Source of the DNA: Candidatus Nitrotoga sp. HW29
GTDB taxonomy: Bacteria; Pseudomonadota; Gammaproteobacteria; Burkholderiales; Gallionellaceae
Direction of reading: 5' to 3'
NCBI RefSeq assembly: GCF_924101635.2
Contig: NZ_CAKMAA020000007.1
Coordinates: 1 to 64,000, forward strand
DNA: 64,000 nucleotides
The notes below the pieces were generated by a model. That model was not told the origin of the DNA and made no database searches. It saw only the letters and a program-made list of their open reading frames with translations. The translations under genes were made by a program, and so were the position numbers. Below are positions 32,358 to 64,000 of the stretch, piece after piece. Numbering within the stretch: position 1 is the first letter of the stretch; every line of letters begins with the position of its first letter.

Positions 32358-32360
32358 ATA

Positions 32361-32534
32361 TCAGTCCCTCGCACCGGGCACCCGTTCGGTATGACCTGGC
32401 TTATAGGGCACGATGCAACGCAAATGCCAACGCAAGAACAGGCGCCGTAGCAGCCGGTACTTCAGTACATAATAGGCAACTGCAGCTAACAGTACGCCTG
32501 AGAGGAGGGACAATATAAAGTTTTTAAGCATCAT
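32361..32534 (-). CDS. bcsF: Small membrane protein BcsF
   Basis: A 57-residue frame found by translating the bcsE-bcsQ gap. It starts ATG at 32534, sharing one base with the bcsE stop (TGATG), and stops 3 bases before bcsQ. One N-terminal membrane helix (FILSLLSGVLLAAVAYYVL) is followed by an arginine-rich segment (KYRLLRRLFLRWHLR) and a short tail, which is the BcsF layout. BcsF binds BcsE and recruits it and BcsG to the membrane. The call rests on topology, size and position between bcsE and the synthase genes, and not on strong sequence conservation. Confidence 0.75.
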   Translation of the reverse strand: MMLKNFILSLLSGVLLAAVAYYVLKYRLLRRLFLRWHLRCIVPYKPGHTERVPGARD

Positions 32535-34339
32535 CAAAGAATTTGTTCAAACGAAGTAGAAAGCATGTCCGTCGTTGCACGCCGCGGCAAAGGAGAAGGT
32601 CGCATGGTACGGTGCTTGTCCACTGGGCATGTCAACTTAACCTCAGTGATTTCAACCGATGAAGACGGAGAAATTTGTCTCACTTGCTTTCGGAGGCCAG
32701 TTGTTGCGGTCGAACGCTTGGCTCTGTCTTCCAGAATCGGCAAATCGGCTTGCAGGACTAATGAATAATCGAACATAGGCGAGTTTTCGTTGCTTCGCCG
32801 CAACTGACCTACAGATTCCAAAATCAACTCTGGTGTCGGCTCAATAATATGGGAAGAAAACAGCTCCGTTACCGGCACGGAAAAAAGACGATCGAGAGTC
32901 GAATCTACATCCGACTCTCGGCAAGCAAACAAAAACAAATAAATACTATTCTGATCGGCGGTAAAAATATCGCCGAGCCTTCGCGCATGGCAAGCCTGAA
33001 GCGCATCCAGTTGTGCTACCCTGGACAGAATTGGAAGACGTACCAGACTATGACTCAGATCAATACGTTCGGAACGTTTGAGCATTGCCTCCACTTCGCG
33101 ACAAAAAGTGAACGGCGATAGGTAACCCGCAATCCGATTCGGCTCAGCGGCCTGCACAGCAAGAAGATATTCATTCTCAACCGGGCGGCTGAATACCTGG
33201 TCAGAGATATCATTTATAACTTGCACTACACGAGAAAATGGAATTTCCTTGTACACCATCAAGTTGATCCCCAAACGAAAAAGCATCAACTCGTTGTTGT
33301 AACGAAGCTTATTGGTAGTTTCTCGTACAACAATTTTCAGGGAACGGGGATGGGACGAGCGCATGCGATGGACAAATCGCGATAGCGCTTCAAACTCCTG
33401 GTCACCATCCGCATGCAACAGGATAGTAGCAGCCACCGCACTATCACAGGCCACTTCCATATCAGACAGATCACTTACTACCGTCCATTCTGCGGGCACA
33501 CCTTTAACACCCGCCACGGTAGCTGCTGTCGCGATGACTCGTCTCTGATCAGGCGCATAAAAAACCACCTGTTCTCCGGCATCTATTTCAACACCATCCA
33601 CACTCAAAGACTTATCCTGTACGGGCAATTTCAAGCCAAACTGCCGATGCACACTTTTATCCTGTCCCGCCCACCGTTCAACCGTTAACAAACCAGCTCC
33701 GCAATCCGCATCCAATACAGCGAGATTGGGCACCAATTCCGGCAAAGTTCGCAGCAATGGCAAAAAACCACGAGCCCCTTTAATATCTTTGATTATTAGC
33801 AAAATAGGCGCATGATGATCTGCAGCCCATGCCTTCCAGGCTTGCCACTGTTTGACAAATAGATCCTGGTTCTGCCAATCAAAAATCGCCTGGCCCTCCT
33901 GAACCAGCAAAGTGTGTTGTGCTGTCACGCCGCAAACACCAATCTCATCAAAAAAACGATTAACACCCAATCGTCTGATGATCTCGACACAATCATCGGT
34001 CACACGAAAAAAAATAAGTGCTCCAGAATTGTCTGGACCGGAAGTATCGAGACTACGGGCGAACTGATCCATAAATTTCCGGCCTGTCTCTCCCGATGCC
34101 AAGATAGACAACGGCCCTGCCTGTCTGAAATTGCGTGCTGACGAAAGTGCACAACACTGCCCCAGCACCTCGTCCCGCACCAACAAAACGCTTACCAAAC
34201 CAGCGCCGCACAGGCCTACATCGGCAGGTAACCCAGACACTCCCAAGTGGGTCTGATCAATCGCGTCTTTCCTCAAAGTACTATCTTTACGCAATAAACG
34301 CATGATCGAAGACACGAATCGCCCGAACATATTCATCAT
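32534..34339 (-). CDS. bcsE: Cyclic-di-GMP-binding cellulose regulator BcsE
   Basis: About 601 residues with a degenerate receiver/REC-like middle and a C-terminal GIL domain. BcsE binds cyclic di-GMP and boosts the synthase. The GIL-type segment VRETTNKLRYNNELMLFR lies near residue 350; where E. coli BcsE has an RxxD motif, this protein appears to read RYNN, so ligand binding by this site may differ (my alignment by eye). Start: the ATG at 34339 overlaps the dgkA TAA by one base and has GAGG just upstream; a start at 34354 is possible. The protein is followed immediately by bcsF. Confidence 0.8.
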   Translation of the reverse strand: MMNMFGRFVSSIMRLLRKDSTLRKDAIDQTHLGVSGLPADVGLCGAGLVSVLLVRDEVLGQCCALSSARNFRQAGPLSILASGETGRKFMDQFARSLDTSGPDNSGALIFFRVTDDCVEIIRRLGVNRFFDEIGVCGVTAQHTLLVQEGQAIFDWQNQDLFVKQWQAWKAWAADHHAPILLIIKDIKGARGFLPLLRTLPELVPNLAVLDADCGAGLLTVERWAGQDKSVHRQFGLKLPVQDKSLSVDGVEIDAGEQVVFYAPDQRRVIATAATVAGVKGVPAEWTVVSDLSDMEVACDSAVAATILLHADGDQEFEALSRFVHRMRSSHPRSLKIVVRETTNKLRYNNELMLFRLGINLMVYKEIPFSRVVQVINDISDQVFSRPVENEYLLAVQAAEPNRIAGYLSPFTFCREVEAMLKRSERIDLSHSLVRLPILSRVAQLDALQACHARRLGDIFTADQNSIYLFLFACRESDVDSTLDRLFSVPVTELFSSHIIEPTPELILESVGQLRRSNENSPMFDYSLVLQADLPILEDRAKRSTATTGLRKQVRQISPSSSVEITEVKLTCPVDKHRTMRPSPLPRRATTDMLSTSFEQIL

Positions 34340-34731
34340 TACCTCAAGGGCCATAAAATCATGGCCCAAATCAAAATGGCGTTCATCAGTGCCAACAAAA
34401 CAGCAGCGCTACCCATGTCCTTTGCTTTCTTGGCCAATGGATGGATATCCAGTGATATCCGATCCACGACAGCTTCAATGGACGAGTTGATCATTTCCAC
34501 CATTAACACCAGCATAACGCTCGCCACCAACAGCACCCGCTGAGTCACGTCCACCGGCACCATGAAGGCCACCGGCACAAGAACAATGGCGAAAATAGCT
34601 TCCTGACGAAAAGCGGACTCATCTCGCCATGCGAGAAATAATCCAGACAGCGAATAACGCAGGGCATTCACCAATCGACGCAACCCGGAAGTTTTGTGGG
34701 GATTCGCATTTGTCATGTTTACAAATTTCAC
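34339..34731 (-). CDS. dgkA: Diacylglycerol kinase DgkA
   Basis: A 130-residue prokaryotic-type DAG kinase with three membrane helices. Family segments are clear: FRQE in the first part, the EMINSSIEAVVDRIS motif with its catalytic glutamates, and KKAKDMGSAAV. It recycles diacylglycerol to phosphatidic acid. It leads the leftward bcs operon and overlaps bcsE by one base. The link makes sense, because phosphoethanolamine transfer by BcsG from phosphatidylethanolamine releases diacylglycerol, which this enzyme would remove. Confidence 0.93.
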   Translation of the reverse strand: MKFVNMTNANPHKTSGLRRLVNALRYSLSGLFLAWRDESAFRQEAIFAIVLVPVAFMVPVDVTQRVLLVASVMLVLMVEMINSSIEAVVDRISLDIHPLAKKAKDMGSAAVLLALMNAILIWAMILWPLR

Positions 34732-35447: not shown

Positions 35448-35954
35448 ATGACAACGGCAGATACTATGTCTCATGAAATTGAATCACTCTACAGTAGTCA
35501 TCATAGTTGGCTCTGCGGGTGGCTACGCAAAAAACTGGGCGCACACTGTGACGCGGTTGATTTTGCACACGACACTTTTCTGCGTATTCTTACTTCACGC
35601 GACCTATTTTGTATCCGCGAGCCGCGCGCTTATCTCGCCACGGTCGCAGGCGGATTAGTCGCACATCATTATCGCCGGCGCGCCATTGAAAAAGCCTATC
35701 TGGATGCACTGACCAACTTGCCAGAGCCGGAAACGCCTTCTCCGGAATATAGCGCTATTTTGTTGGAAACATTGATTGAAATTGATCAATTACTCGACAA
35801 TTTGCCCCTGAAAGCACGTCGAGCGTTCTTGCTGGCGCAACTCGAAGGTTTGACTTATGCGGAAATTGCTCAGCAATTGGGTGTATCCGTCAGCATGGTC
35901 AAACAATATATGTTGCGAGCTACACACCAGTGCTATTTTTCGCGCTCGCTCTAA
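35448..35954 (+). CDS. FecI-type ECF sigma factor
   Basis: A 168-residue ECF sigma-70 protein of the iron-starvation (FecI) group. Region 2 is seen in DAVDFAHDTFLRIL with PRAYLATVAGGLVAHHYRRR, and region 4 in ARRAFLLAQLEGLTYAEIAQQLGVSVSMVKQYM, quoted as the helix-turn-helix area near residues 118-150. It directs transcription of the neighbouring receptor when that receptor senses its siderophore. ATG at 35448, or 35466, are both possible. It lies 27 bases after the Fur box and 4 bases before the FecR-type gene. Confidence 0.9.
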   Translation: MTTADTMSHEIESLYSSHHSWLCGWLRKKLGAHCDAVDFAHDTFLRILTSRDLFCIREPRAYLATVAGGLVAHHYRRRAIEKAYLDALTNLPEPETPSPEYSAILLETLIEIDQLLDNLPLKARRAFLLAQLEGLTYAEIAQQLGVSVSMVKQYMLRATHQCYFSRSL

Positions 35955-35958
35955 GGCC

Positions 35959-36984
35959 ATGGCCAGCAAGAATACGATTAGTTCTGCTGCTATGCTTAAA
36001 CAAGCCCCTGCTTTTGCGGAGGATGGATTACCATTCAATACTCATGTTGCCCAACAGGCTTCAGAATGGCTAGTCTTGCTAATTTCCGGTACTGCCACCG
36101 ATGAAGATCGCCATGCCTGGGAACAGTGGCGCAACGCCGACCCAGAGCATGGTCGTGCTTGGCGTCACATTGAAAATATCAATCAACGTCTTCACGGCAT
36201 ACCAACTGATATTGTCCTCAAAACTTTAGCTCCCAATGCCCTGCGAAATCGCCGTCGCTTTATTAAGGCACTCACTGTAGTGCTCTTGGCCAGTGGAACA
36301 GGATTGCTCGTCCGACAGGAAACACCCTGGCGTGCATGGACTGCCGACTATCGAACCGGTACCGGTGAACAGCGCAAGCTTACGCTAATAGACGGCACAC
36401 TCATTGTGCTCAATACCACTAGCGCCATTGATGTCGATTACAGCGACACGTTAAGATTAATACAGCTGCGCACTGGTGAAATGTTTATTACCACTGCTCA
36501 GGATAAGCCAACGGCAACATTGATGCGACCTTTCGTTGTTGAAACCGCAGAAGGTACGGTACGTGCGCTCGGCACGCGTTTCGTTATCCGGCAAGAAGAC
36601 GACCGCAGCCATGTGGCCGTATATGAAGGCGCGGTTGAAATTACACCTTTTGATGCCCGCGATCAAAAGATCGTCGTGCCCGCCGGACAAGCACTCAGCT
36701 TTACCCGTCACACCAGGGATACCTTTTTACCAGCCGATGAAAATGCTATCGCCTGGACCGACGGCATGATCGTCGCCGAAAAAATACGCTTGGGCGACTT
36801 TATCGACAGCCTGCGCCGTTATCGAAATGGATATCTGATCTGCGATCCGGCAGCGGCGAATCTGCTCGTTTCCGGCGTTTTTCCATTGAAAGATACGGAC
36901 AGTGTCTTGGCATCGCTCACTGATTCGCTGCCAGTCAGCATCCATTATCGAACCCGATTCTGGGCGACCGTAGTACACAAGTGA
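35959..36984 (+). CDS. FecR-type anti-sigma/sigma regulator
   Basis: About 341 residues starting at ATG 35959. An N-terminal DUF4880-like cytoplasmic segment (ASEWLVLLISGTATDEDRHAWEQW), one membrane helix (about 100-116), then a periplasmic FecR domain (GEQRKLTLIDGTLIVLNTTSAIDVDY) and the secretin/TonB short-domain contact region. It passes the signal from the receptor's STN domain to the sigma factor. A reading frame beginning at 35857 is extended into the sigma gene and is not used. The receptor gene follows after 132 bases. Confidence 0.88.
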   Translation: MASKNTISSAAMLKQAPAFAEDGLPFNTHVAQQASEWLVLLISGTATDEDRHAWEQWRNADPEHGRAWRHIENINQRLHGIPTDIVLKTLAPNALRNRRRFIKALTVVLLASGTGLLVRQETPWRAWTADYRTGTGEQRKLTLIDGTLIVLNTTSAIDVDYSDTLRLIQLRTGEMFITTAQDKPTATLMRPFVVETAEGTVRALGTRFVIRQEDDRSHVAVYEGAVEITPFDARDQKIVVPAGQALSFTRHTRDTFLPADENAIAWTDGMIVAEKIRLGDFIDSLRRYRNGYLICDPAAANLLVSGVFPLKDTDSVLASLTDSLPVSIHYRTRFWATVVHK

Positions 36985-37116
36985 CAAAACCCTCTCATAA
37001 AAATTATTTTAAATAATTACTGTCCTTTTTTCCATTTCAAGTGGCCTACCAAATAAGTCACTGCCAACAGCAGTGCACACATTCGTACCACTTACAAAAT
37101 TTGGACAGAGGAAACA

Positions 37117-39630
37117 ATGGGAATCCGGAAAAATCGCAGCAAGCAATCCAATCGTCGTGTCGGAAACATAGCAATATTGACGCTCACACAATGTTCACAC
37201 GCTATTCATACTATGTTTTATGGCTTGGCGACATTAGCCAGTATGACGGTGGCAGCACCCTTTGCCTATGCAGCGGATACTGCACAGATCCAGACGACAC
37301 TCAAACACTATGATGTTCCTGCCGGATCGCTTGCTACCCGTTTGAATGACCTCGCCCGGGCAGCAGGTGTGCTGTTGTCGTTCGACCCCGCACTCGCGGA
37401 AGGCAAACGTACTAATGGAATATCAGGTAACTATGCGCTTCCCGATGCATTTGCAAGACTATTGGCCGGTTCGAATGTTGAAGCGGTTGCAATTTCAGGT
37501 GATCGGTACACCCTGAAAACCTTATCTGTTGTTCCGCTCCAACGGGGAGCTGAACCAAATGCAACGACATTACCCGAGGTTAGAGTATCAGCGACACCAG
37601 GTATTAAAGAGTCGGCCCATGGCCCGCTAATAGGGTATGTTGCCAAACGTAGCACTACTGCAACCAAGACCGACACCCCGATTATCGAAATACCGCAATC
37701 AATCTCCATTATTACCCGTGACGAACTCGACGATCGCGGCGTTCAAGGAATGACCGAAGCATTACGATATGTACCTGGCGTAGTGGTCGACAATTTTGGA
37801 TACGAACCCAGAGGCTTCGAATATATCCTTATGCGTGGCTTCAATGGAACCAATTCAGCCAATTTCCGGGACAGCTTGCACCAGCTAACCGAAGGACTAT
37901 GGTACTCGTCTTTTCTGAGTGAACCCTATGGCGTTGAGCGAATCGAAGTTATGCGCGGCCCAAGCTCCATTATGTTTGGCAAGGGTGATGCAGGCGGAGT
38001 GGTGAATCGTGTCAGCAAGCTTCCCAGCCGGGATGCCATGCGTGAAATCGAAGTCCGAGTCGGCAATTTTAACCGCAAACAAATTAATGCTGACGTGGGT
38101 GGGGCAATCAATGAGGACGGAACACTGCTTTATCGCATTGTGGGAATGGGGCTGGATACCAACACGCAAGTAAAATACGCTAGTGGAGAGCGTCCTTCCC
38201 TTGAGCGACAGTATCTGGCTCCTTCCTTGACATGGCAACCTTCAGCCGACACGTCAATTACCCTGCTTGCGGATGTGCTAAAAAATACGACCGGAGCCTC
38301 TCCTTTTTATCTGGTTGCCCCCAATGGAGTCTTAACCCGCACGATGGCCGCTGATCCGAGCTTTGTACAATATAAACAGGATCAGGGTTCTATTGGCTAC
38401 AAAGTCGAACATCATTTCAATGATATTTGGACGATCCGGCAAAATTTTCGTCACGCGCAAACGAGTGTCAAGGTAAGAGAGGTTAATGCAGTTGATTTCC
38501 TTGAAGACGGTCAGACACTACTCCGCTCCACGACATATACTAAAGAACGGGTTAAACAGACGCTTGTTGACACCCAGTTACAGGCTAAGTTACGTACTGG
38601 AATGGCAGAGCACACCATGCTGTTTGGATTCGACGCTAACCGTGCCGATCTGACACTCCACGCACTTATTGGTGATACCCCCCCTACTCTGAACGTATTT
38701 TCCCCTGTCTACAATCAGGTAATACCCGAGCCTGACATATTGGCTGCGAATGGTAAACAAAGGGTCCAGCAGCTTGGTTTCTACCTTCAGGATCAGGTCA
38801 AATTTAATCAACGCTGGATTCTTACTTTGGGTGGACGTCAGGATAGGGTCAAAACTGTACATAACGATGTCCCGCAGGGCATCGCAGAAGCATCGACACA
38901 AAATGCATTTAGCGGTCGCGCGGGGTTAACCTACCTTGCGTCCGATGGCTGGGCACCTTACATAAGCTACGCAGAATCTTTCGTACCTCAAGTTGCTTCA
39001 ACATTTGACGGGAGACTTCTTGATCCAAGTCGCGGCAGGCAATATGAAATTGGCGTTAAATATCAGCCGCAAAATAGTAACAGTCTATATACAGCCGCCA
39101 TATTTGACCTGACCAAAACGAATGTCGCAACGCCAGATTTGAACCCTGAGCATCTGGTGCTAAATCCTTTTGCCAGCATTCAAACGGGGGCAATTCGATC
39201 ACGCGGACTTGAACTGGAAGCAAGAACGGAACTTACCCGTAACCTGAATGCTATCGGGGCCTTCACTTACAACGATGTTGAAGTAACCAAGAGCAATGAT
39301 ATTGATTTAGGTAAAGTTCCACCGCGGGTACCTAAAACAACGGCCTCACTCTGGCTGGACTACAAGCCATCCGGACCAGCTTGGCAGGGATTTGGTTTCG
39401 GCAGCGGCGTTCGATATACCGATAGTCGCTTTAACGACCCGACCAATACCTCGTCCTTACCTTCGTTTACTTTGTTTGATGCGGGAGTTCGCTACGAATC
39501 AGGCCATTGGCGCTATGCCCTGAATGCCGCCAATCTGTTCAACAAAGAATACACCTCTACAAAAAATACCTTTACTCATTTCCTGGGCACACAGAGAACT
39601 GTGATCGCTAGCGTGAAGTACCGGTGGTAA
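37117..39630 (+). CDS. TonB-dependent siderophore receptor with STN signalling domain
   Basis: An 837-residue outer-membrane receptor. After a signal peptide (ending AAPFAYA near residue 52), an STN domain (about 60-125) contacts FecR; a plug domain (about 190-300; IPQSISIITRDELDDRG, IEVMRGPSSIMFGKGDAGGVVNRVSK) and a 22-strand barrel follow, ending in KYRW with the terminal aromatic residue. The sequence is of the ferric-hydroxamate/ferrioxamine-type siderophore group (FhuE/FoxA-like), but the ligand cannot be fixed. Ribosome-binding site AGAGGA precedes the ATG. With the upstream pair it forms a cell-surface signalling unit. Confidence 0.92.
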   Translation: MGIRKNRSKQSNRRVGNIAILTLTQCSHAIHTMFYGLATLASMTVAAPFAYAADTAQIQTTLKHYDVPAGSLATRLNDLARAAGVLLSFDPALAEGKRTNGISGNYALPDAFARLLAGSNVEAVAISGDRYTLKTLSVVPLQRGAEPNATTLPEVRVSATPGIKESAHGPLIGYVAKRSTTATKTDTPIIEIPQSISIITRDELDDRGVQGMTEALRYVPGVVVDNFGYEPRGFEYILMRGFNGTNSANFRDSLHQLTEGLWYSSFLSEPYGVERIEVMRGPSSIMFGKGDAGGVVNRVSKLPSRDAMREIEVRVGNFNRKQINADVGGAINEDGTLLYRIVGMGLDTNTQVKYASGERPSLERQYLAPSLTWQPSADTSITLLADVLKNTTGASPFYLVAPNGVLTRTMAADPSFVQYKQDQGSIGYKVEHHFNDIWTIRQNFRHAQTSVKVREVNAVDFLEDGQTLLRSTTYTKERVKQTLVDTQLQAKLRTGMAEHTMLFGFDANRADLTLHALIGDTPPTLNVFSPVYNQVIPEPDILAANGKQRVQQLGFYLQDQVKFNQRWILTLGGRQDRVKTVHNDVPQGIAEASTQNAFSGRAGLTYLASDGWAPYISYAESFVPQVASTFDGRLLDPSRGRQYEIGVKYQPQNSNSLYTAAIFDLTKTNVATPDLNPEHLVLNPFASIQTGAIRSRGLELEARTELTRNLNAIGAFTYNDVEVTKSNDIDLGKVPPRVPKTTASLWLDYKPSGPAWQGFGFGSGVRYTDSRFNDPTNTSSLPSFTLFDAGVRYESGHWRYALNAANLFNKEYTSTKNTFTHFLGTQRTVIASVKYRW

Positions 39631-39657
39631 TTCAACCCGTTCTCGAAAAGGAAAAAC

Positions 39658-39689
39658 AAAGAGTTTCATAGGCTGTTCAGAAACTCTTT
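39658..39689 (+). terminator. Hairpin between receptor and PepSY genes
   Basis: AAAGAGTTTC (39658-39667) and GAAACTCTTT (39680-39689) form a perfect 10-base stem with a 12-base loop, 28 bases after the receptor stop. The A-rich left and T-rich right sides make it symmetrical, so it could be a weak terminator or a processing/stability element that sets the receptor apart from the downstream gene. Confidence 0.5.
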
Positions 39690-39718
39690 AGTTGATCTTT
39701 GAATATTAGGAATATCGT

Positions 39719-41041
39719 ATGCGCTCAGTCTTCGTTCATTTACATCGCTGGCTCGGCCTGATTATTGCCGGTTTTTTATTTATTTCCGGTATTACTGGCG
39801 CAATCATCTCCTGGGATCATGAACTTGACGAGTTACTTAATCCGCACCTCACCGAGGTACAAAGTCGGGGGCCCGTAATCCCTCCACTGGAAATAATCAA
39901 ACGCATTGAGGCCGCCAATCCTCATGCGTGGATTACTTTCATTCCTCTATTAACACAAGATGGCGAATCAGCAACCTTTGGAATTTCCCCGCGCATAAAC
40001 CCCAACACCGGACAAGCGTATGAACTTGGGTACAACCAAATATTTGTAGACCCGATCACAGGGTTGGAATTGGGGAAACGTGAATGGGGAGCAGTGTCAT
40101 TATCACGCGAAAATTTAATATCTTTTCTATACAAATTACATTACAGCCTGCATATCCCGGAAATATGGGGCATAGACAGATGGGGCATTTGGCTGTTGGG
40201 AATCATCGCCATGATGTGGGCGCTGGATTGTTTTTTTGGATTTTACTTAACATTGCCATTGCGGCGACGTCAGCGCTTTCCTGAAACGAATGCGCTACAC
40301 AATGGAGCCATTCCCAACGCCTATTTGCAACTGAAGTTATCAACACAAAGAACAGAGCACACCTGGTGGGAAAGATGGCTCCCAGCATGGCAAGTGCGCT
40401 GGAAAAACGGAATATATAAACGCAATTTCGATCTGCATCGGGCAACGAGCTTATGGACTTGGGCGTTGCTCTTTATCATGGCCTTTACCGCGTTTTCATT
40501 AAACCTGAACCGTGAAGTGTTTTTCCCCGTTATGTCGCTCGTATCGAATGTAACCCCCAACCCCTTTGATCTACGGGTACCGAGGGATAAGCACCACCCA
40601 ATTATTCCCAAGGTTAATTACGAATCAATACTTGCCAAAGCGCACGCAGAATCCGCGCGTAGAGGCTGGAAAGAACCGGCTGGCAGCATATTCTATGCAG
40701 AAGATTATGGCATCTATGAAGTCGCTTTTTTCTATCCGGGTGATGACCACGGGGCAGCAGGAGTTGGCCCGGCAAATCTTTACTTTGATGCAGAAGATGG
40801 ACGCTATTTAGGTGATAGAAAACCTTGGGAGGGTTCAGTAGCGGATATCTTTATGCAGATGCAATTTCCACTGCACTCTGGTCGCATTCTTGGTCTACCA
40901 GGACGCATCCTTATCTCCCTCATGGGATTAGCCGTAGCGATGCTCTCCGTAACGGGCGTTTATATATGGTGGAAAAAACATCGCGGTCGTGCGGTTCTTA
41001 CTAAACGCACGCGTCAAATACCCAATACTGTGGCCACGTAA
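39719..41041 (+). CDS. PepSY-associated transmembrane protein (PiuB-like)
   Basis: A 440-residue inner-membrane protein with four membrane helices and PepSY-TM features: the start HLHRWLGLIIAGFLFISGITGAIISWDHELDELLNP, given here only in part as WLGLIIAGFLFISGITGAI, HYSLHIPEIWGIDRWGIW with conserved histidines, the LHSGRILGLPGRILISLMGL region and a basic end (WWKKHRGRA). Such proteins accompany TonB receptors and are thought to help release or reduce iron from siderophores. It follows the receptor in the same direction, with an AGGA ribosome-binding site. Confidence 0.88.
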   Translation: MRSVFVHLHRWLGLIIAGFLFISGITGAIISWDHELDELLNPHLTEVQSRGPVIPPLEIIKRIEAANPHAWITFIPLLTQDGESATFGISPRINPNTGQAYELGYNQIFVDPITGLELGKREWGAVSLSRENLISFLYKLHYSLHIPEIWGIDRWGIWLLGIIAMMWALDCFFGFYLTLPLRRRQRFPETNALHNGAIPNAYLQLKLSTQRTEHTWWERWLPAWQVRWKNGIYKRNFDLHRATSLWTWALLFIMAFTAFSLNLNREVFFPVMSLVSNVTPNPFDLRVPRDKHHPIIPKVNYESILAKAHAESARRGWKEPAGSIFYAEDYGIYEVAFFYPGDDHGAAGVGPANLYFDAEDGRYLGDRKPWEGSVADIFMQMQFPLHSGRILGLPGRILISLMGLAVAMLSVTGVYIWWKKHRGRAVLTKRTRQIPNTVAT

Positions 41042-55004: not shown

Positions 55005-55454
55005 CTACTTCCACTTGGAAATGGTGCTCAACAAAACTGGGTCTGTACTAGTTGAAGTGACTCCCCAAGTTATAGCCGACGCTCCTGGTGTTGGAAGCCA
55101 AGTGACGCTCGTTGCATCGATTCCACCCTTAATACAATTAGTACAAAGATTAGCTACGATAGCGCCAGTTGCAGCCGTCACAGAATAACTTGCAACCTCT
55201 GTTGTTGCTGTTGGCGCGGCGCTAAGCCCCAAGGAAGTCCAGTTATCAGTAGTCAGAGCAGCGGCAGTACCATTCTCCTGGATAAACATAGCAACCGCCA
55301 TTTTAAGCGGATCCACAGCGGTCGCGACTTTAGAAAGTTTGGCTTTAACTACATAATCCTGATAGGCAGGAATCGCTACCGCAGCCAAAATACCGATAAT
55401 CGCAACCACGATCATCAATTCAATCAGGGTAAAACCTTTTTGCATTTGTTTCAT
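55005..55454 (-). CDS. Major type IV pilin (PilA/PilE type)
   Basis: A 149-residue prepilin. The leader MKQMQKG is cleaved before [20 protein letters not shown], the hallmark N-methylated helix with Glu5. Mature length is about 142 residues. A close cysteine pair (NLCTNC) could form the disulfide loop. Polymerises into the pilus fibre used for twitching and attachment. The ATG at 55454 has GAAGGAG upstream; the longer frame from 55568 is a false extension. A sigma-54 promoter precedes it and a strong terminator follows. Confidence 0.95.
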
Positions 55455-55510
55455 AATTGATACTCCTTCAAGTGTTAAAAATTTGGTACACGGGGTGTGC
55501 GGTTTACTAT

Positions 55511-55527
55511 AAGCAGTATTCATGCCA
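55511..55527 (-). promoter_or_regulatory. Sigma-54 promoter of the pilin gene
   Basis: Reading the minus strand, TGGCA (55523-55527) and TGCTT (55511-55515) give GG-N10-GC spacing as in the -24/-12 consensus (TGGCAC-N5-TTGCA). Transcription would start about 55,500, leaving a leader of about 45 bases. Pilin genes are commonly driven by RpoN with PilR; pilR is not in the window. Confidence 0.75.
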
Positions 55528-55790
55528 GAAAAAATTTCTTCAAGCATTACCGCCTGGACCGGGTTCACGCAACAATTCAGAGATGCTTTTTAAACTTCAC
55601 ATTGAAGAGAACAGCTGATTTACGTCAGGAAAGTGACGGTTTTTGTCACTCTGGTTTTCGCATAAGGCAGAATAAAAATAGATAATGCTCTGGAGATTTA
55701 CTTCTTCTGAGAGAGATTGAAAAAAGTAAATCCATTCATCCTTCGGGAAATTCAGGACGAACGGATTTATTCCTTCTGTGTGTGCGGGAG

Positions 55791-58220
55791 TTACTTCATG
55801 CAGACGACACGCACCTGATGCATATCGGTGATGCCGGATAATACCTTTTCAATACCATCTTGCTTCAGGGTGCGCATGCCGTCATTGAGTGCATTAGCAA
55901 ACATTTCCGCGACGCGAGCGTGTTCTTGAATATTCTTTTTTATCAGGTCGGTACCCACCATCAACTCATGCAAACCTACCCGTCCGCGATAACCGGTGCC
56001 GGAGCAATAATCACAGCCTACCGGTTCATATAACGTGAATTTCCCCGTTTCATCGGCAAACAGCTTGACCCATTCGGCGTACAGTGCCTTGTAAGCAGCA
56101 TTGGCATCTTGTTTCCAGGACGCGCAATTCATAAGCTCCGTCGCATATTCAACAAGTAATAATTTGAGTTCATCTTGAGTGGCGGTATGGGGTTTCTTGC
56201 ACTTCTTGCATAAACGTTTGGCTAAACGCTGCGCCAGAACGCCTAGCAGAGCATCGGAAAAATTAAACGGATCCATACCCATATCCAATAATCGCACGAC
56301 GGATTCCGGCGCGCTGTTAGTGTGCAGGGTGGCAAACACCAAATGGCCGGTAAGAGAAGCTTCGATACCAATAGAAACCGTTTCCTTATCGCGCATTTCG
56401 CCTACCATAATCACGTCCGGGTCGGCGCGCAAAAAAGCCCTCATGATGGTAGCGAAATCCATACCGGCCTTCTTGTTGATTTGCACCTGACGCAGGCCTT
56501 TCTGCGTAATTTCTACCGGATCCTCTGCCGTCCATATTTTGGTCTCGGGCTTATTAATATGGCCAAGCACAGAATGCAAAGTGGTTGTTTTACCGGATCC
56601 AGTTGGTCCGCATACAAAAAACAGGCCGTAGGGTTTGCTGACGACCGCCTTCAGGGTTTCAAGATTTCGAGCCGACAAGTCTAGTTCATTAAGTTTTATC
56701 GGCTCTCCATTAGCCAAAATACGCATCACGATATCTTCCATGCCGCCCTGAGAAGGAATAGTGGCGACGCGCAGCTCAATATCCAGAGGCGCATATTTAT
56801 TGAACTTGATCTTGCCGTCCTGGGGTTTGCGCTTCTCTGAAATATCAAGGTCGCACATGATCTTAATACGCGTAACCAGCGCACTCCGAAAAGATGAGGG
56901 GACTTCGATATAAGGGAGTAGAGAACCATCCTTGCGCAAACGAATCACGGTTTTGCCCTTGCCCGGCGCGGGTTCGACATGAATGTCGGAAGCACCCATT
57001 TTGTGGGCATCCATGATAATCTTATTCACCAGTTTGACTAGTTCATTGTCTGCCGCCGCACTGACGTCCTCCTGATAAACCTCATCAAGCTCTTCTTCAT
57101 CCCCTCCCATGGCGGTAAGCATCTCATCCATTGAGGTACCGTCCATTTCCAAGCTGCCGAACATACCACTGGTGCCACCTCCACCAAAGAACAAGTTGAG
57201 GGTTGCATTAAATTCGCGCTGCGAGCAAACCCGGTAAACCAGTCGACTCCTCGGAAAAACATTGTTTACCACGCGTGAGGTTTGAATCCACTCTGGATCA
57301 GTAGTCAGAATTACCAAGCCTTCCGTCACCTCATCTATCGGAACCCATTGGCTACTTTCTACATATTCCCGTTTCAGTTTTTTAAGTAATTCGGTTGGTT
57401 TGATACGATCAGGGCTGAAGGGTTCATAGGGCACTCCGAAAAAGAGTGCAAGTGCTTTACCAAGAGCCGCCGGTTTAACCTGAAATTCATCAAGCAGCTC
57501 ATCCTCGATGTCAACATTTTTACGTCGCGCTGTAGATACAGCCAGATCCAATTCGTCGGCAGACAACACCGCGTCATAAACCAAATGATCGTACTTGGTT
57601 TTAGCAGTAGGTTGCTGCTGACTCTGGCGTAGCGCCACCGCCAAGTTCTGTGCCAGTTCTAATATCCCATCTACTAACATTCTCGAAAAAGGTTGATCGG
57701 CCTTATTATTAAGAACCTGGATGACACCGGCCAAGTCCTTGCTCTCGGGATCAAGTATGGGTACCACAAGAGCTTGCTTGGTACGATAGCCCGTGCGCTT
57801 ATCCACGTCTTGCAGAAAGCGCAGGCTGGAACTATGCGAAGCTAATTCTTTTTCGTCATACACATCCGTGATGTTTAGTACTTTTTTGTGTAGCGTCACA
57901 TACCCAACAAGACTTTGCTCAGTAACACGTAATTTGAGATCCTTGAATGAGTTAGCCCCCGTCTTTATTTTTGAAATCAGCGTGGCCTTGTCTTTATCCA
58001 GTGAATAAATAGTGAGACGATCAGCGTTGAATATCGTACATATATCCTTGCTAACCCCCAGCATAATTTCGTCGAAATTGTATGCAGTATTGATCTTGCT
58101 GATGACGTGATCATGAATGTTACTTATGATCTGATTAAGATTTTTCGTGAACACCAGTTGCGCCTCAATCTGGCTAGCATTGGCCCGGCGCTCCCGCTGT
58201 ATTATTGGTGCATTATCCAT
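55791..58220 (-). CDS. PilB-like type IV pilus/secretion ATPase with N-terminal GAF domain
   Basis: About 809 residues from ATG 58220 (ribosome-binding site AGGGAG). An N-terminal GAF domain (about 30-205) is followed by an MshEN/T2SE N-domain (about 215-370) and the GspE-type ATPase: Walker A GPTGSGKTT, the Asp box AEDPVEITQKG, Walker B DPDVIMVGEMRD, and a CxxC...CDYCSG zinc module near the end. The GAF domain is a small-molecule or redox/light-type sensor not found in standard PilB, so this ATPase may be gated by a ligand. It is the nearest ATPase to the pilin gene, separated by 336 bases. Confidence 0.88.
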   Translation of the reverse strand: MDNAPIIQRERRANASQIEAQLVFTKNLNQIISNIHDHVISKINTAYNFDEIMLGVSKDICTIFNADRLTIYSLDKDKATLISKIKTGANSFKDLKLRVTEQSLVGYVTLHKKVLNITDVYDEKELASHSSSLRFLQDVDKRTGYRTKQALVVPILDPESKDLAGVIQVLNNKADQPFSRMLVDGILELAQNLAVALRQSQQQPTAKTKYDHLVYDAVLSADELDLAVSTARRKNVDIEDELLDEFQVKPAALGKALALFFGVPYEPFSPDRIKPTELLKKLKREYVESSQWVPIDEVTEGLVILTTDPEWIQTSRVVNNVFPRSRLVYRVCSQREFNATLNLFFGGGGTSGMFGSLEMDGTSMDEMLTAMGGDEEELDEVYQEDVSAAADNELVKLVNKIIMDAHKMGASDIHVEPAPGKGKTVIRLRKDGSLLPYIEVPSSFRSALVTRIKIMCDLDISEKRKPQDGKIKFNKYAPLDIELRVATIPSQGGMEDIVMRILANGEPIKLNELDLSARNLETLKAVVSKPYGLFFVCGPTGSGKTTTLHSVLGHINKPETKIWTAEDPVEITQKGLRQVQINKKAGMDFATIMRAFLRADPDVIMVGEMRDKETVSIGIEASLTGHLVFATLHTNSAPESVVRLLDMGMDPFNFSDALLGVLAQRLAKRLCKKCKKPHTATQDELKLLLVEYATELMNCASWKQDANAAYKALYAEWVKLFADETGKFTLYEPVGCDYCSGTGYRGRVGLHELMVGTDLIKKNIQEHARVAEMFANALNDGMRTLKQDGIEKVLSGITDMHQVRVVCMK

Positions 58221-58399
58221 CCACTTCTCCCTGATCACTCCAAGTGTGACTTGCCATATGGTGAGATTGCATAACTTTGTTACTTGCTATCCGGATAGCG
58301 GCATTTGGCGAAAATTCTCCATGCGATTTTGAAACAAAGATGGGTTATGCCACCTAGTATTTAAGGTTGTGGTGTTCCGGAATGGAAAACGATACAACT

Positions 58400-58581: not shown

Positions 58582-59382
58582 TCAAATTTTGAGATAGAAC
58601 TCCATTTTGATCCCCGCCAACTCAATAATGTCATGCTCATTCAGCTGGCACGGTTGATCGTCCAGCGGCTTACCATTAAGATTGGGGTAGCTTGCCCCTT
58701 CCACATAAGTAATGAAATAACCACGCGGACGACGCGTAAATACAACGACCTGCAAGCCGGACTTCCCTACCGTAGTCAGATTCTTCACTAGTTCAAGTTC
58801 TTTTCCTGCATTAGGTCCGGTTAATATCTGTATTACACCTATTGCTTGCTGCAAATCAGGCATTTTCTGGGCGGGGGGTACAAGAGCCGGCTGCGGCTGC
58901 AATAATGTAACAACCTCAGCCTGTCGCAACTCAGATGTTCTCTCAGCAGGTGTTAATGGGGTTTGCTCCTTGGATTTTAATTTCCCTGATATTTCATGCG
59001 GCTCGGCTTTTACCGGAGGGGCAGATGCAATACGGGAAGACGCACGAAATACCATTGTTTTCTCGAAGTCTGCCGCAGTAGATTGGCTTTTCTGATCATT
59101 TACATATTTAAGCTTATATTTACTAATTTCAATTACATCATTACTTTGCAAAAAATGTTTTTTAATTGCAGTACCATTTACTAAAATTCCATTGGTACTA
59201 TCCAAATCTTCCAAAAAAGAATCATTCAGTATGGTCACTACCGCTGCATGCTCGCCGCTAACTGCAAGATTATCAATAACGATCTCATTGTGCGGCTTGC
59301 GCCCTATCGTCATACGCTCTTTGTCCAGAACATATTCCTGCAACACTCCACCATCCATGCTTAATATCAGTTTCGCCGCCAT
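58582..59382 (-). CDS. FHA-domain protein
   Basis: A 266-residue cytoplasmic protein with two FHA-like regions. The first (about 20-95) is canonical for phosphothreonine binding: GRKPHNEI, SGEHAAV, and DSTNGILVNG. The second (about 190-266) has TVGKSG and NLNGKPL but lacks the full set, so it is probably degenerate. The middle is proline-rich. It follows the PP2C phosphatase by 17 bases and precedes the pilus ATPase, suggesting it reads Ser/Thr phosphorylation for the pilus machinery. Some FHA-only proteins are scaffolds. Confidence 0.88.
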   Translation of the reverse strand: MAAKLILSMDGGVLQEYVLDKERMTIGRKPHNEIVIDNLAVSGEHAAVVTILNDSFLEDLDSTNGILVNGTAIKKHFLQSNDVIEISKYKLKYVNDQKSQSTAADFEKTMVFRASSRIASAPPVKAEPHEISGKLKSKEQTPLTPAERTSELRQAEVVTLLQPQPALVPPAQKMPDLQQAIGVIQILTGPNAGKELELVKNLTTVGKSGLQVVVFTRRPRGYFITYVEGASYPNLNGKPLDDQPCQLNEHDIIELAGIKMEFYLKI

Positions 59383-59399: not shown

Positions 59400-60233
59400 T
59401 TAATTCTTGAACCAGGACAGTATTTTTGCGAGCCAGCCACGTTGCACGGCAAACTCACCATTAACCTTAATAAGTATTACCGATACATTATCCCGCCCGC
59501 CATTATCGTTTGCCATTTCAATCAATTGTTTCGCTGCCAATTTTAGATTGGCTCGCAGCATGTGCACCGTGTCTCTGATCTCATCGTCTTCGATCATGTC
59601 GTTCAAGCCGTCTGAGCATATTAAATAAATATCGCCCACTTGCACCGCATGAATTTGAATTTCCACCTCGACGGCTGGATCAACGCCAACCGCGCGCGTA
59701 ATCAAATTTTTATTTTTGGATAGTCGCGCATCTTTGGGACTTAGCAAACCTCTGTCAATTTGCTCCTGCAACAGTGAATGGTCACGAGTAATAGGCTCCA
59801 ATATTTCACCACGCAATCGATACATCCGCGAATCGCCGACGTGAGCAACTGCTAAACGGTTATCGTAAAACAGCCCGGCTACTACCGTGGTACCCATACC
59901 AGCGTATTGCGGCTGGCTTTGCGACGAATGATAGATAGAGGCATTGGCTTTTCGCACTTTTTCGCGTAACAGTGCCACACCGACATCTTCACTGCCTTCA
60001 CCTCTATCTTCAGGACGCATGCTTTCCAAGCTATGCTTTATTTCGGTCGTTATCAGAGAAACTGTAATGCCGCTCGCAATTTCACCAGCATTATGCCCAC
60101 CCATACCGTCCGCCAGCACCACTAATCCACACGACGCTTCATAAGCCACGCTATCTTCATTGTGCGAACGCGCAACACCCGGGTGAGTCTGACTAACGAT
60201 TTCTAGCGCCTGTTCAATATCCATATTGGGCAT
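59400..60233 (-). CDS. PP2C-family Ser/Thr protein phosphatase
   Basis: A 277-residue PPM/PP2C phosphatase needing Mn or Mg. Motifs: SHNEDSVAYE, LADGMGGHNAGEIASG, GDSRMYRLRG, ITRDHSLLQEQ, ICSDGLNDMI and GGRDNVSVI. It removes phosphate from Ser/Thr residues and forms a pair with the FHA gene (17 bases apart). The kinase encoded divergently 514 bases away is the obvious antagonist. Starts at ATG 60233 or 60224. Confidence 0.93.
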   Translation of the reverse strand: MPNMDIEQALEIVSQTHPGVARSHNEDSVAYEASCGLVVLADGMGGHNAGEIASGITVSLITTEIKHSLESMRPEDRGEGSEDVGVALLREKVRKANASIYHSSQSQPQYAGMGTTVVAGLFYDNRLAVAHVGDSRMYRLRGEILEPITRDHSLLQEQIDRGLLSPKDARLSKNKNLITRAVGVDPAVEVEIQIHAVQVGDIYLICSDGLNDMIEDDEIRDTVHMLRANLKLAAKQLIEMANDNGGRDNVSVILIKVNGEFAVQRGWLAKILSWFKN

Positions 60234-60747: not shown

Positions 60748-62514
60748 ATGATTACATCATCAGAAATAGGCCGTATCACATTTCCCGTTTCCGGGCACTT
60801 GAAGCAGGCTAAAACCATACAAAAGTTAATTGCCGAGGATATCACCGAATATGCGCCGACCCGCGATAATTCATTGCAATATAAAACGAATGAGTGCATC
60901 AATACCAAATTGCACCATAGTGAACTACCCAGCGGCAATGCTGTAATTCCTGCGGCCCAGAGCACGGTAAATGGCTCCGTGCTCTTCGTCGATATTCGTA
61001 ACTTTACTATGTTCGCCGACCAACTCCATGCTGGGGAAGTAGTTGAATTTTTGAATACATTTTTTGAACAAGCGTATGAGCCAGTGCGCCAGCAGTGTGG
61101 ATGGGTAGTAAGATTCCTCGGCGATGGAATGGTAGCAATGTTTGAGCCGAAAGCAGAACAACCCGATGATCACGCCGAACGTGCACTTAAAGTGGCACTC
61201 CTGATAGTGCTCGCCGCCGACTCCTTCCGTAATTGGATCGCGCAGCGCTTCCCCGAACGGAAATTCCCTCAATTCGCAGTCGGTATCGGCATACATTCGG
61301 GCGAAGTGATGATATGCCAGATGGGCGGTGGCACCGTAATCGAAACCACCATAATCGGTGATACGGTAAACATTGCTGCTCGCCTGCAATTAATGACCAA
61401 GACTCTCGGTTGGAGCATAGCGACGAGCCGCTCCTGCGCAAATATAGCCGGAGACCGTTTTCAACTTGGCCGTGATAGCACGGTAACAATGAAGGGGGGA
61501 GCGGTACAAATTCAAGCCATAGAAATTGCGGGGCTTAATCCGTGTACCTCAACCAATTGTAATGATAGTTTTTTCTACGATAAGCTGAATCAGTCTTTAG
61601 CTGTGAATACGGCAATATTCGAGTTGGCACGAGAGCAAACCGACTCGATACAAAACCATTATTCGAGCGCCGGAAGCGCGCTTGAGACAGCTCCTCAAGA
61701 TCAACCAATCGAACTGGAAGGCTATCGCTTACTGCGCAAGCTGGGACAAGGCGGAATGTCTGAAGTTTTTCTCGCAGAAAATCTTACCACGCACACTCAA
61801 CAAGTTCTAAAACTTGTTCCAACGACAGCCATTGACATTGATAACGACGATACATTACAACGTTTTTTACATGAGTTCGCACTTATCTCGCAGATTAATC
61901 ATCCTAACGTCGCACGCATCTATAAACAGGGTTTCACTTCGACCCACGCTTATATCTCTATGGAGTTTTTTCCCGGTGGAGATTTACGGCACCTGATCTC
62001 GGAGCAGCCCACCCCGCAAATCGCAATTGCCTCGTTGCTTCAGATCATGGGTGGACTCTCCGCCATCCATGCACTGGGCATCATTCATTGCGATATGAAA
62101 CCCGACAATGTAATGATCCGCAGAGACGGCTCACTCGCACTTGCCGATTTCGGAATTGCCGAGCATTCCGACGTCAGCAAGTTATCTACCCGCCCCGGTG
62201 AGATTATGGGTTCACCATCCTATCTTGCGCCCGAGCAGGCGTTAGGTCTGCCTGTCGATGAACGGACGGATCTGTATAGCATGGGCGCCATGTTTTACGA
62301 AATGCTGACCGGACGGCCGCCATACAATGGAAACTCCGTGCAGGCAATTCTTTACCAACACGTCAACCTTCCGGTACCTGTATTACCCGTGGGTCTTGAG
62401 CGCTTTCAACCCATCCTGAATCGCATGATGGCCAAATCGGCCGCCGCACGCTTTGAAAGCGCCGACGCAGTCGTCGAATACGTGATTTCCTCCGGCTTGA
62501 TCGGAAATCTATGA
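60748..62514 (+). CDS. Class III nucleotide cyclase fused to Ser/Thr protein kinase
   Basis: A 588-residue cytoplasmic protein. Residues about 75-260 form a class III cyclase domain: LFVDIRNFT (metal D82), FLGDGMVAMF (metal D126), GIGIHSGEVM, and IIGDTVNIAARL (D205, N208, R212). At the usual purine-selecting lysine before the second metal Asp (KFIGD type) this protein has R122. Residues about 320-588 form a Hanks-type kinase: GQGGMSEVF loop, K355, HCDMKPDN (D449, N454), DFG (467-469) and APE. The HRD arginine is cysteine, so it is a non-RD kinase, and no membrane helix or PASTA repeat is seen. It is followed with overlap by two response regulators. Confidence 0.92.
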   Translation: MITSSEIGRITFPVSGHLKQAKTIQKLIAEDITEYAPTRDNSLQYKTNECINTKLHHSELPSGNAVIPAAQSTVNGSVLFVDIRNFTMFADQLHAGEVVEFLNTFFEQAYEPVRQQCGWVVRFLGDGMVAMFEPKAEQPDDHAERALKVALLIVLAADSFRNWIAQRFPERKFPQFAVGIGIHSGEVMICQMGGGTVIETTIIGDTVNIAARLQLMTKTLGWSIATSRSCANIAGDRFQLGRDSTVTMKGGAVQIQAIEIAGLNPCTSTNCNDSFFYDKLNQSLAVNTAIFELAREQTDSIQNHYSSAGSALETAPQDQPIELEGYRLLRKLGQGGMSEVFLAENLTTHTQQVLKLVPTTAIDIDNDDTLQRFLHEFALISQINHPNVARIYKQGFTSTHAYISMEFFPGGDLRHLISEQPTPQIAIASLLQIMGGLSAIHALGIIHCDMKPDNVMIRRDGSLALADFGIAEHSDVSKLSTRPGEIMGSPSYLAPEQALGLPVDERTDLYSMGAMFYEMLTGRPPYNGNSVQAILYQHVNLPVPVLPVGLERFQPILNRMMAKSAAARFESADAVVEYVISSGLIGNL

Positions 62515-63461
62515 TGATCGAAGCATTCACATCCATGCCCCCAGCAAAATCCCAATACACCATAGATGTCCACGGCTTTAGCCAGACCGAACGGATTATC
62601 TTGAAGAGTATTTTCAACTTATCCGCGCGTCGTGCGCCTAAGTTTGTCGAGTTTATGCCGGCAGTGGATTCAACGATGGGTTCAGCACCGGACGTTTTTC
62701 TCGTGGATGCTGAAGACGCAAGTGCGATAGCAGATTTTCGTCAAAAAAATGCCAGTAACGCTCGGCCTGCAATCCTGATTGGTGACACCGATCACGGTAT
62801 TGCGTGCACAACAACTTTGTCACGACCTTTGCAATGGACAAAACTGTTCAAAGCATTCGATCTCGCAGTAGGAATTAACCTACCCAACCAAGCACCTAAA
62901 CTAGAGCCTGCAATTCGTATAACAGCCCCCTACGAAAAAACCCAACCGATAATCGCAATATCCGCCCTGCGTCCATCGGTGTCTCCAATAACTCCACCAC
63001 AAATATCAGATACAGCGGCACAGAAATTAGCCTCAGCAAATCACAACTTGGCGAATAACATGGCCTCCGCGTCCCCGCCGGATCGCCCATTTAATTGGGT
63101 TTTAGTCTGCGACGACAATATGACTGTGCGTGAATTCATGCGCATCAAGCTCGCGCCATTTGGTTTCAATGTCGATTACGCCGAAACAGGAGAACAGGCA
63201 GTTGGACTCACCGGTACCAAACACTACACCTGTGTCTTTCTCGATGTTGTAATGCCAGGAATCAATGGTTATCAGGTTTGCAAACTTATCAAGTCCAAGA
63301 AAGGCGCCGCAAAAACTGCGGTGGTGATGCTTTCAAGTAAAGATTCAACTTTTGACAAGATCCGAGGCACTATGTCTGGTTGCGATACTTACCTCACAAA
63401 ACCGGTCAACGAAAACCGCCTTTTGGAAGTAATCAGCAAATACCTGCCAACGAATGCCTGA
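62511..63461 (+). CDS. Response regulator with degenerate N-terminal half (PilG-like)
   Basis: A 316-residue protein. The C-terminal receiver domain (about 195-315) is complete: acidic pair DD (201-202), phospho-acceptor D245 in FLDVVMPG, S275 and K297 in LTKPV. The first 130 residues look like a decayed second receiver, and a proline-rich linker joins them. It has no output domain, so it probably works by protein contact, like PilG or PilH. The ATG overlaps the cyclase-kinase stop by 4 bases (ATGA), implying translational coupling. Confidence 0.87.
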   Translation: MMIEAFTSMPPAKSQYTIDVHGFSQTERIILKSIFNLSARRAPKFVEFMPAVDSTMGSAPDVFLVDAEDASAIADFRQKNASNARPAILIGDTDHGIACTTTLSRPLQWTKLFKAFDLAVGINLPNQAPKLEPAIRITAPYEKTQPIIAISALRPSVSPITPPQISDTAAQKLASANHNLANNMASASPPDRPFNWVLVCDDNMTVREFMRIKLAPFGFNVDYAETGEQAVGLTGTKHYTCVFLDVVMPGINGYQVCKLIKSKKGAAKTAVVMLSSKDSTFDKIRGTMSGCDTYLTKPVNENRLLEVISKYLPTNA

Positions 63462-63511: not shown

Positions 63512-63874
63512 ATGACCATCAAAAAAGTTCTTTGCGTCGACGATTCGTATACTGATCTTGTCAATATTCAAACAATCGTAATCGGCACAGGCCGCTTTGT
63601 CGTCACCGCCGCTAACGGCAAGGATGCGATCGAGAAGACCAAATCCGAAAAACCGGATCTGATTTTTATGGATGTAAACATGCCGGATATGGATGGCTTT
63701 GCCGCTACCCGCGCTTTAAAAAAAGATCCCGCAACCAAGGACATTCCGGTCGTATTTGTAACCAGCAAGGACCAAAAAGCAGACAAAATGTGGGGGCAAA
63801 TGCAAGGAGGAAGCGGATATGTCGTCAAACCCTATACATCCGATGATATTGTCAGGCTCATCAACACATTATGA
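63512..63874 (+). CDS. Single-domain response regulator (PilH/CheY-like)
   Basis: A 120-residue receiver: DD (10-11), phospho-acceptor D54 in FMDVNMPD, and a KP pair near residue 103 (VVKPY). The VTSKDQKADKMWGQMQGG stretch resembles PilH of type IV pilus chemosensory systems. It follows the larger regulator by 50 bases with an AAGGAG ribosome-binding site. The next gene probably belongs to the same chemosensory cluster. Confidence 0.9.
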   Translation: MTIKKVLCVDDSYTDLVNIQTIVIGTGRFVVTAANGKDAIEKTKSEKPDLIFMDVNMPDMDGFAATRALKKDPATKDIPVVFVTSKDQKADKMWGQMQGGSGYVVKPYTSDDIVRLINTL

Positions 63875-63931: not shown

Positions 63932-64000
63932 ATGCAAAACGAAATCAATTCTGCTGATTCGCTGCTAGCGCCGAGCGTGGCATTGCACCCGGCACGCACG
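63932..64000 (+). CDS. Truncated gene running off the window
   Basis: An open frame from ATG 63932 to the last base (23 codons, MQNEINSADSLLAPSVALHP...), 57 bases after the PilH-like gene and on the same strand. In Pil-Chp clusters the next gene is often a CheW-like PilI or PilJ, but too little is present to identify it. Confidence 0.5.
   Translation, partial: MQNEINSADSLLAPSVALHPART

Follow-up and report, generated by a model that had tools for sequence, protein, structure and literature searches.

The Locus and the Fusion Protein

The window analyzed here, that is the whole stretch of 64 kb covering contig positions 1-64000 in the 2.99-Mb draft genome of Candidatus Nitrotoga sp. HW29, closes within an apparent operon whose first gene joins a class III nucleotide cyclase to a Hanks-type Ser/Thr kinase (table 1). 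This gene, called CYC-KIN hereafter, is a single open reading frame of 588 codons with no internal stop codon, and the arrangement proposed in an earlier note made from the sequence, with the cyclase placed before a complete kinase, is borne out by the frame itself, by Pfam and by 11 full-length orthologues of the genus. Pfam finds Guanylate_cyc (PF00211) at residues 71-250 (E 1.9e-14; 54.1 bits against a cut-off of 21.9) and Pkinase (PF00069) at residues 326-539 (E 9.2e-43; 147 bits), and each is the only match to its model in the HW29 genome. PDB cyclases match the first region by sequence with E values down to 4.5e-17; a PDB structure search with the AlphaFold model of the fusion returned kinases only, among the 50 matches listed, which leaves sequence matches as the basis for assigning the cyclase fold. 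The N-terminal block of the same model has a mean pLDDT under 40. The protein had been described as soluble, and indeed no membrane span is evident in it, the highest 19-residue Kyte-Doolittle mean (1.75) falling within the kinase, at residue 425.

Table 1. Features of the CYC-KIN locus, in window coordinates (those beyond 64000 lie past the window end)
Feature	Position	Strand	Basis or remark
CYC-KIN, class III cyclase-Ser/Thr kinase fusion, 588 aa	60748..62514	+	ORF, Pfam, 11 full-length genus orthologues including its own
CYC-KIN N-terminus, 70 residues	60748..60957	+	Low model confidence, fast-evolving; occupies the receiver position of most relatives
CYC-KIN class III cyclase domain, residues 71-255	60958..61512	+	Pfam and PDB sequence matches
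Cyclase residue codons	D82 60991, R122 61111, D126 61123, N208 61369, R212 61381	+	
CYC-KIN linker, residues 256-320, predicted long helix 271-303	61513..61707	+	AlphaFold model
CYC-KIN Hanks-type kinase domain, residues 321-575	61708..62472	+	Pfam, structure search
Kinase motifs	K355 at 61810, HCD (447-449) at 62086, DFG (467-469) at 62146	+	
PilG-like response regulator	62511..63461	+	C-terminal receiver; N-terminal domain with a receiver-like order of secondary structure
PilH-like single receiver protein	63512..63874	+	Pfam
CheW	63932..64000 in window, ends 64489	+	Domain search past window
MCP with HAMP	64530-66848		Downstream in operon
CheA with Hpt and receiver	66907-69942		Downstream in operon
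Two more CheW-like proteins	69939-70388, 70327-70827		First slightly below Pfam cut-off
Stp1-type PP2C Ser/Thr phosphatase, divergent	59400..60233	-	NF033484 242.8 bits, cut-off 230
FHA-domain protein (phosphothreonine reader)	58582..59382	-	PF00498 E 3.7e-17
PilB/GspE-like ATPase, N-terminal GAF and MshEN	55791..58238	-	Under curated PilB and GspE cut-offs
Type IV pilin-like protein	55005..55568	-	PF07963 N_methyl E 5.9e-10, PF00114 Pilin E 1.2e-8

Alignment confirmed the residues that the note had listed, namely the metal-binding aspartates D82 and D126, the transition-state pair N208/R212, and K355, D449 and the HCD motif of the kinase; T201 of the cyclase is present too. The set that defines Hanks kinases (K355, D449, N454 and D467) is complete on a PF00069 fold with DFG, and K355, E376, D449, K451, N454 and DFG do not vary across the 11 full-length Nitrotoga orthologues. 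Two replacements singled out previously hold throughout these 11 proteins. Residue 122 is Arg, against the purine-binding Lys of 11 canonical relatives and of the best-matching solved cyclases (five alignments, one photoactivated cyclase family), and the kinase reads HCD in place of the RD motif, a subclass feature, against HRD in the remaining 34 of the 45 homologues aligned. A GT to GS change in the kinase accompanies them, again in 11/11.

Reading 16 kb past the window end (L046) showed that CYC-KIN is followed by genes for PilG-like and PilH-like proteins, CheW, a methyl-accepting chemotaxis protein (MCP), CheA carrying Hpt and receiver domains, and two further CheW-like proteins. The start of the PilG-like gene overlaps the stop of CYC-KIN by 4 bases, as it does in the eight named records considered below. 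The predicted strand and helix order of the N-terminal half of this regulator is receiver-like, the aligner rows having spanned only residues 191-316; a domain resembling it sits fused behind the cyclase-kinase of another genome (G238, L138; E 1e-20). The gene content is that of Pil-Chp systems, a single operon close to pilus genes comprising two CheY-like receivers, CheW, MCP and a receiver-bearing CheA. None of the operon proteins matches a PilJ- or ChpA-specific model of Pfam or NCBIfam, and the MCP yielded neither a Pfam PilJ domain nor a match to a PilJ structure, its PDB matches being general chemoreceptors. We consequently use only the label Pil-Chp-like, on the basis of gene order and of the adjoining pilin and PilB-like genes. 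The PilB-like ATPase scores 460.8 against a PilB equivalog cut-off of 675.65 and is possibly a special, nucleotide-regulated form of PilB.

Elsewhere in the HW29 genome there is a protein of 161 amino acids with a single cNMP-binding domain (L119; G000:C28, match 1755-2012) and a GE...PRKA cassette (GECAGTRAFVDRVPRKA), a candidate receptor should the cyclase be active.

Distribution in Candidatus Nitrotoga

Within Candidatus Nitrotoga, CYC-KIN is a fixed gene: it occurs in 12 of the 19 genus genomes, full-length in 11 of them (HW29 included), and the full-length orthologues are 75-90% identical. A search with the protein found 15 named loci, of which eight, from seven Candidatus Nitrotoga and one Betaproteobacteria MAG, match the fusion along its full or almost full length (75-86% identity) and seven match the kinase only; the named records probably come from some of the assemblies that supplied the genus orthologues. 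The order from CYC-KIN to CheA, together with the divergent PP2C, FHA and PilB-like genes, is found, within the stretch lengths, in G103 as well as in all eight named records. The pilin gene comes next in 7 of these 9 loci, the stretch of G103 stopping short and another locus (L032) giving no match in the 1.1 kb examined. An orthologue of the ChpA-like CheA is present in the same 12/19 genomes as CYC-KIN, and both are absent in the other seven, three of which are under 85% complete; because the two genes share an operon, their co-occurrence counts as one piece of evidence and not as several.

The twelfth genome (G111, listed as 100% complete) has no PF00211 match and retains the operon with the kinase half of the gene at a contig end. 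Just 5' of this half (G111:C38, L061) the DNA ceases to match the linker, and judged by eye the sequence at this break looks like the beginning of a transposase gene on the opposite strand; the missing cyclase half could merely be unassembled. Seven Nitrotoga genomes contain a second class III cyclase, in open frames of 427-467 aa (e.g., G099:C23:114470-114946), which HW29 does not have.

Relatives Outside the Genus

To survey relatives, 399 genomes evenly drawn at the level of the order, together with 369 of the class and 279 of the phylum, were searched at E 1e-60, with at most three or four candidates scored per genome, so that the following counts of fusions are lower bounds. In the order, 36/399 genomes match and at least 19 have the fusion over both domains, at least 15 of them outside the family. 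Matches in the class (34/369) and in the phylum (2/279) include, among the candidates scored, no fusion besides that of the window's own genome. Since it is found in 11 genus orthologues, in eight named records and in at least 15 genomes of the order outside the family, the fusion is real, and neither a product of chance nor of assembly.

A receiver precedes the cyclase in 14 of 16 fusions outside the family (two of which belong to G289), one of the others being cut by a contig end and one having none. Of 10 homologues scanned with Pfam, 6 likewise showed a receiver, those without it being a member with a dead cyclase, G238, the kinase-only G399 and a Nitrotoga orthologue. On these two counts, receiver-cyclase-kinase is the usual architecture outside the family, and Nitrotoga lacks the receiver. 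No relic of it was recovered 5' of CYC-KIN, since four receiver N-termini, compared by tblastn with the DNA preceding the gene at six loci, gave matches at chance level only (best E 0.35). Histidine kinases account for all five large neighbours of receiver-cyclase-kinase genes that were scanned, these having been picked by size or receiver matches.

In four relatives (G009, G514, G213 and G328) the fusion is followed by a two-domain regulator of the PilG-like kind, and the gene order of Nitrotoga is shared by another genus of the family (G009, where the contig ends near CheW) and by another family (G514, with the whole operon). In G399 a kinase without cyclase match holds the same place in a like operon. 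A kinase-PilG fusion noted in G370 proved to be an over-extended ORF call, the genes being separate. The closest relatives on the tree, those of family f3 (support 98/92), adjoin hybrid histidine kinases outside such operons; the association with the operon may thus have arisen more than once. The receiver in most relatives, the operon past the window end and the active-site decay described next were all beyond the view of the earlier note.

Probable Decay of the Cyclase Site and Conservation of the Kinase

The tree and motif tables comprise 45 homologues, with two Gallionellaceae fusions (G127 and G129) left out and checked separately and G111 standing outside the set. K355, D449, N454 and D467 of the kinase are intact in 45/45. 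Among the 41 proteins counted as having the cyclase domain, D82, D126, N208 and R212 are kept in 22, one of which (the contig-cut G289a) was judged by the three residues other than D82, and broken in 19, including G328 and G238, in neither of which Pfam finds a cyclase. The claim that kinase activity is linked with cyclic nucleotide production or nucleotide binding is partly supported: the linkage stands insofar as the two domains are kept together in several families, and these figures do not support it insofar as both were taken to be outputs. By parsimony, the broken sites require at least six changes on the kinase tree, an approximate figure as long branches meet; parsimony cannot separate gain from loss, and we infer that the direction was loss.

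Broken sites occur in Nitrotoga itself. The metal aspartates and the N/R pair, all present in HW29, are incomplete in G109, which has D126H in the only PF00211 protein of its genome, and in G099, which has R212H and also one of the second class III cyclases; residue G125 is altered in the orthologues of G104 and G110. The same residue letters recur in the named records of Nitrotoga BS, LAW, M5 and the LakeFargette MAG, probably the same assemblies. Thirteen other fusions of the Gallionellaceae have gone further, both metal aspartates, the Asn and the Arg being lost, and G127 and G129 show the same motifs. The neighbours inspected in this group, which we take from their sequences to be RadC- and EF-Tu-like, are uninformative on a partner.

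Selection was estimated as the median of pairwise NG86 dN/dS values, from pairs that are not independent, and amounts in Nitrotoga to 0.452 for the N-terminus, 0.178 for the cyclase, 0.300 for the linker and 0.082 for the kinase, the lowest value in the protein; the cyclase thus evolves at about twice the rate of the kinase. When positions invariant in the 11 canonical relatives were compared, counting as changed those that differ in at least one Nitrotoga, the excess of loss in the cyclase (13/37) over the kinase (10/57) was not significant (p 0.084). In the dead-cyclase group of Gallionellaceae the corresponding figures are 22/37 and 16/57 (p 0.005). Yet the 13 dead cyclases have a mean identity of 74.2%, against 74.6% for their kinases, and a dN/dS of 0.156 (66 of 78 pairs usable), against 0.139 (58 of 78). 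Since its identity and dN/dS are near those of its kinase, the dead domain is under selection, and most simply would be a working regulatory domain.

Evolution and Possible Function of the Fusion

These observations raise a question: Why should a cyclase be so often deprived of its catalytic residues and still be maintained in front of an intact kinase? The explanation that we favor, with moderate confidence, is that CYC-KIN is the kinase of a chemosensory operon, within a Pil-Chp-like pathway steering type IV pili, and that its cyclase domain is turning from an enzyme into a regulator. The ancestor would have been a receiver-cyclase-kinase response regulator driven by histidine kinases, in which a CyaB-like cyclase was joined to the kinase beneath the receiver. 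Nitrotoga would then have dropped the receiver and, as this domain is absent, the signal would arrive in trans, presumably from the CheA-type kinase to the translationally coupled PilG-like regulator and from this to CYC-KIN. The kinase would be the main output, acting perhaps on pilus or chemosensory proteins, with the divergent PP2C erasing the mark and the FHA protein reading it, beside the PilB-like ATPase. The cyclase domain would constitute an N-terminal regulatory and dimerizing part, coupled to the kinase via the helical segment of the linker; it might pair two chains and perhaps bind ATP or GTP so as to set kinase activity. Loss of catalysis would be advanced to different degrees, site residues having disappeared in some species and, in HW29, the purine Lys only. 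Arg122 had been read as a hint of altered base specificity; it seems rather to mark an early stage of relaxation.

Several facts run counter to this picture. The cyclase of the window keeps D82, D126, T201, N208 and R212 and is under purifying selection, as an active enzyme would be, and the kinase has unusual changes of its own, HRD to HCD and GT to GS. Catalysis by the cyclase of HW29, with both metal aspartates and the N/R pair in place, accordingly stays on the list of candidate activities. A bifunctional enzyme, in which the cyclase still makes cAMP under the chemosensory operon in the manner of CyaB and the kinase is either a second output or regulated by turnover at the cyclase site, seems to us possible, if on the unlikely side. 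Besides its residues and the selection upon it, this option can draw on CYC-KIN being the sole PF00211 match of the genome, on the small cNMP-binding protein with its cyclic-nucleotide-like cassette, and on the precedent of PilG and CyaB in Pseudomonas aeruginosa, as described in the available parts of two papers (PMC12632253, PMC3019171). It is hard to reconcile with the K122R replacement in all 11 orthologues, with the loss of D126 or R212 in two sister species and the failure to find the domain in a third, and with two CRP/FNR-type regulators which, among five PF00027 matches, lack a cAMP cassette when judged by eye.

The cyclase might, on the other hand, be a mere passenger eroding after receiver loss, while the kinase works without it. 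The twofold faster evolution of the Nitrotoga cyclase would fit, as would the cyclase-less kinase half of G111 and the kinase-only version in the like operon of G399; this option is improbable all the same, given a dN/dS of 0.178, far under 1, and dead cyclases in other Gallionellaceae that are conserved as well as their kinases. Least credible of all is a pseudokinase forming a scaffold with the cyclase, to which the HCD and GS changes might point, for non-RD kinases are often active, the catalytic residues of this one are invariant in 11 orthologues, its dN/dS is the lowest in the protein, and genes for PP2C and FHA proteins adjoin it.

There is also a broader proposal, which we put forward tentatively: in a bacterial family of receiver/cyclase/kinase proteins, the class III cyclase domain would have repeatedly become a conserved, dead, nucleotide-sensing and dimerizing regulator of an active Ser/Thr kinase, and in Nitrotoga a chemotaxis-type histidine phosphorelay would be coupled directly to the Ser/Thr phosphorylation of the type IV pilus machinery. 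The relatives form a natural series, from receiver-cyclase-kinase through absence of the receiver, K122R and loss of metal or Arg residues to proteins in which the domain is not found, with the kinase intact throughout, along which an enzyme domain could be watched becoming a regulatory domain. In this widespread group of nitrite oxidizers, a Ser/Thr kinase, a phosphatase and an FHA reader adjoin pilus genes and a chemosensory operon, so that any link of histidine phosphorelay with cyclic nucleotide and Ser/Thr phosphorylation can be tested within a single locus.

Comparison with Known Systems

In receptor guanylyl cyclases, an inactive kinase-homology domain regulates an active cyclase within a single chain. 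CYC-KIN resembles them in that a single polypeptide holds both folds, that of a kinase and that of a class III cyclase, one of which, on our reading, regulates the other; it lies outside that class, having the reverse domain order and no evident transmembrane stretch. On the same reading the roles are mirrored, an intact kinase standing behind an often-broken cyclase, and the family would be, if the proposal is true, the mirror image of these receptors. The TOMM kinase/cyclase fusion (TIGR03903) similarly unites the two functions in one bacterial protein, but CYC-KIN reaches only 132.8 bits against its cut-off of 705.75, with the kinase matching positions 2-242 of 1267.

In P. aeruginosa, according to the available parts of the reports, PilG activates the adenylate cyclase CyaB, the cAMP of which acts through Vfr (PMC12632253), and the Chp system is linked to cAMP with CyaB as a separate membrane enzyme (PMC3019171). 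The likeness lies in the association of a class III cyclase with PilG- and PilH-like receivers, CheW, MCP and CheA; the cyclase of Nitrotoga differs in lying inside the operon, in showing no evident membrane span, and in sharing one protein with a Ser/Thr kinase. Retention of a cNMP cyclase domain without catalysis has a parallel in vWA-MoxR conflict systems, where such inactive domains have been proposed to be nucleotide binders or dominant-negative regulators; there the cyclase is fused to the vWA component, and the sections available describe no such kinase-plus-cyclase chain (PMC7159879). Chains that combine the kinase and cyclase folds are known already, as are cNMP cyclase domains of conflict systems that lack activity. 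Among the matches listed in a search of mostly open full texts, which makes for a weak negative, none dealt with receiver-cyclase-kinase proteins or with an intact Ser/Thr kinase fused to a class III cyclase that is dead. Six terms covering motility, pili, chemotaxis, kinases and cyclases are absent from PMC6050957, and the available portion of PMC2447327 contained nothing relevant.

Apart from the CYC-KIN locus, the window contains at 29020-34369 (minus strand) open frames resembling a cellulose synthase cluster. We take these frames to be BcsA-, BcsQ- and BcsE-like. Genes that are presumably for a sigma factor, FecR, a TonB receptor and a PepSY-like protein lie at 35448-41041, with a second pair of receptor and PepSY-like genes about 30 kb away, past the window end (L046, 11519-15662).
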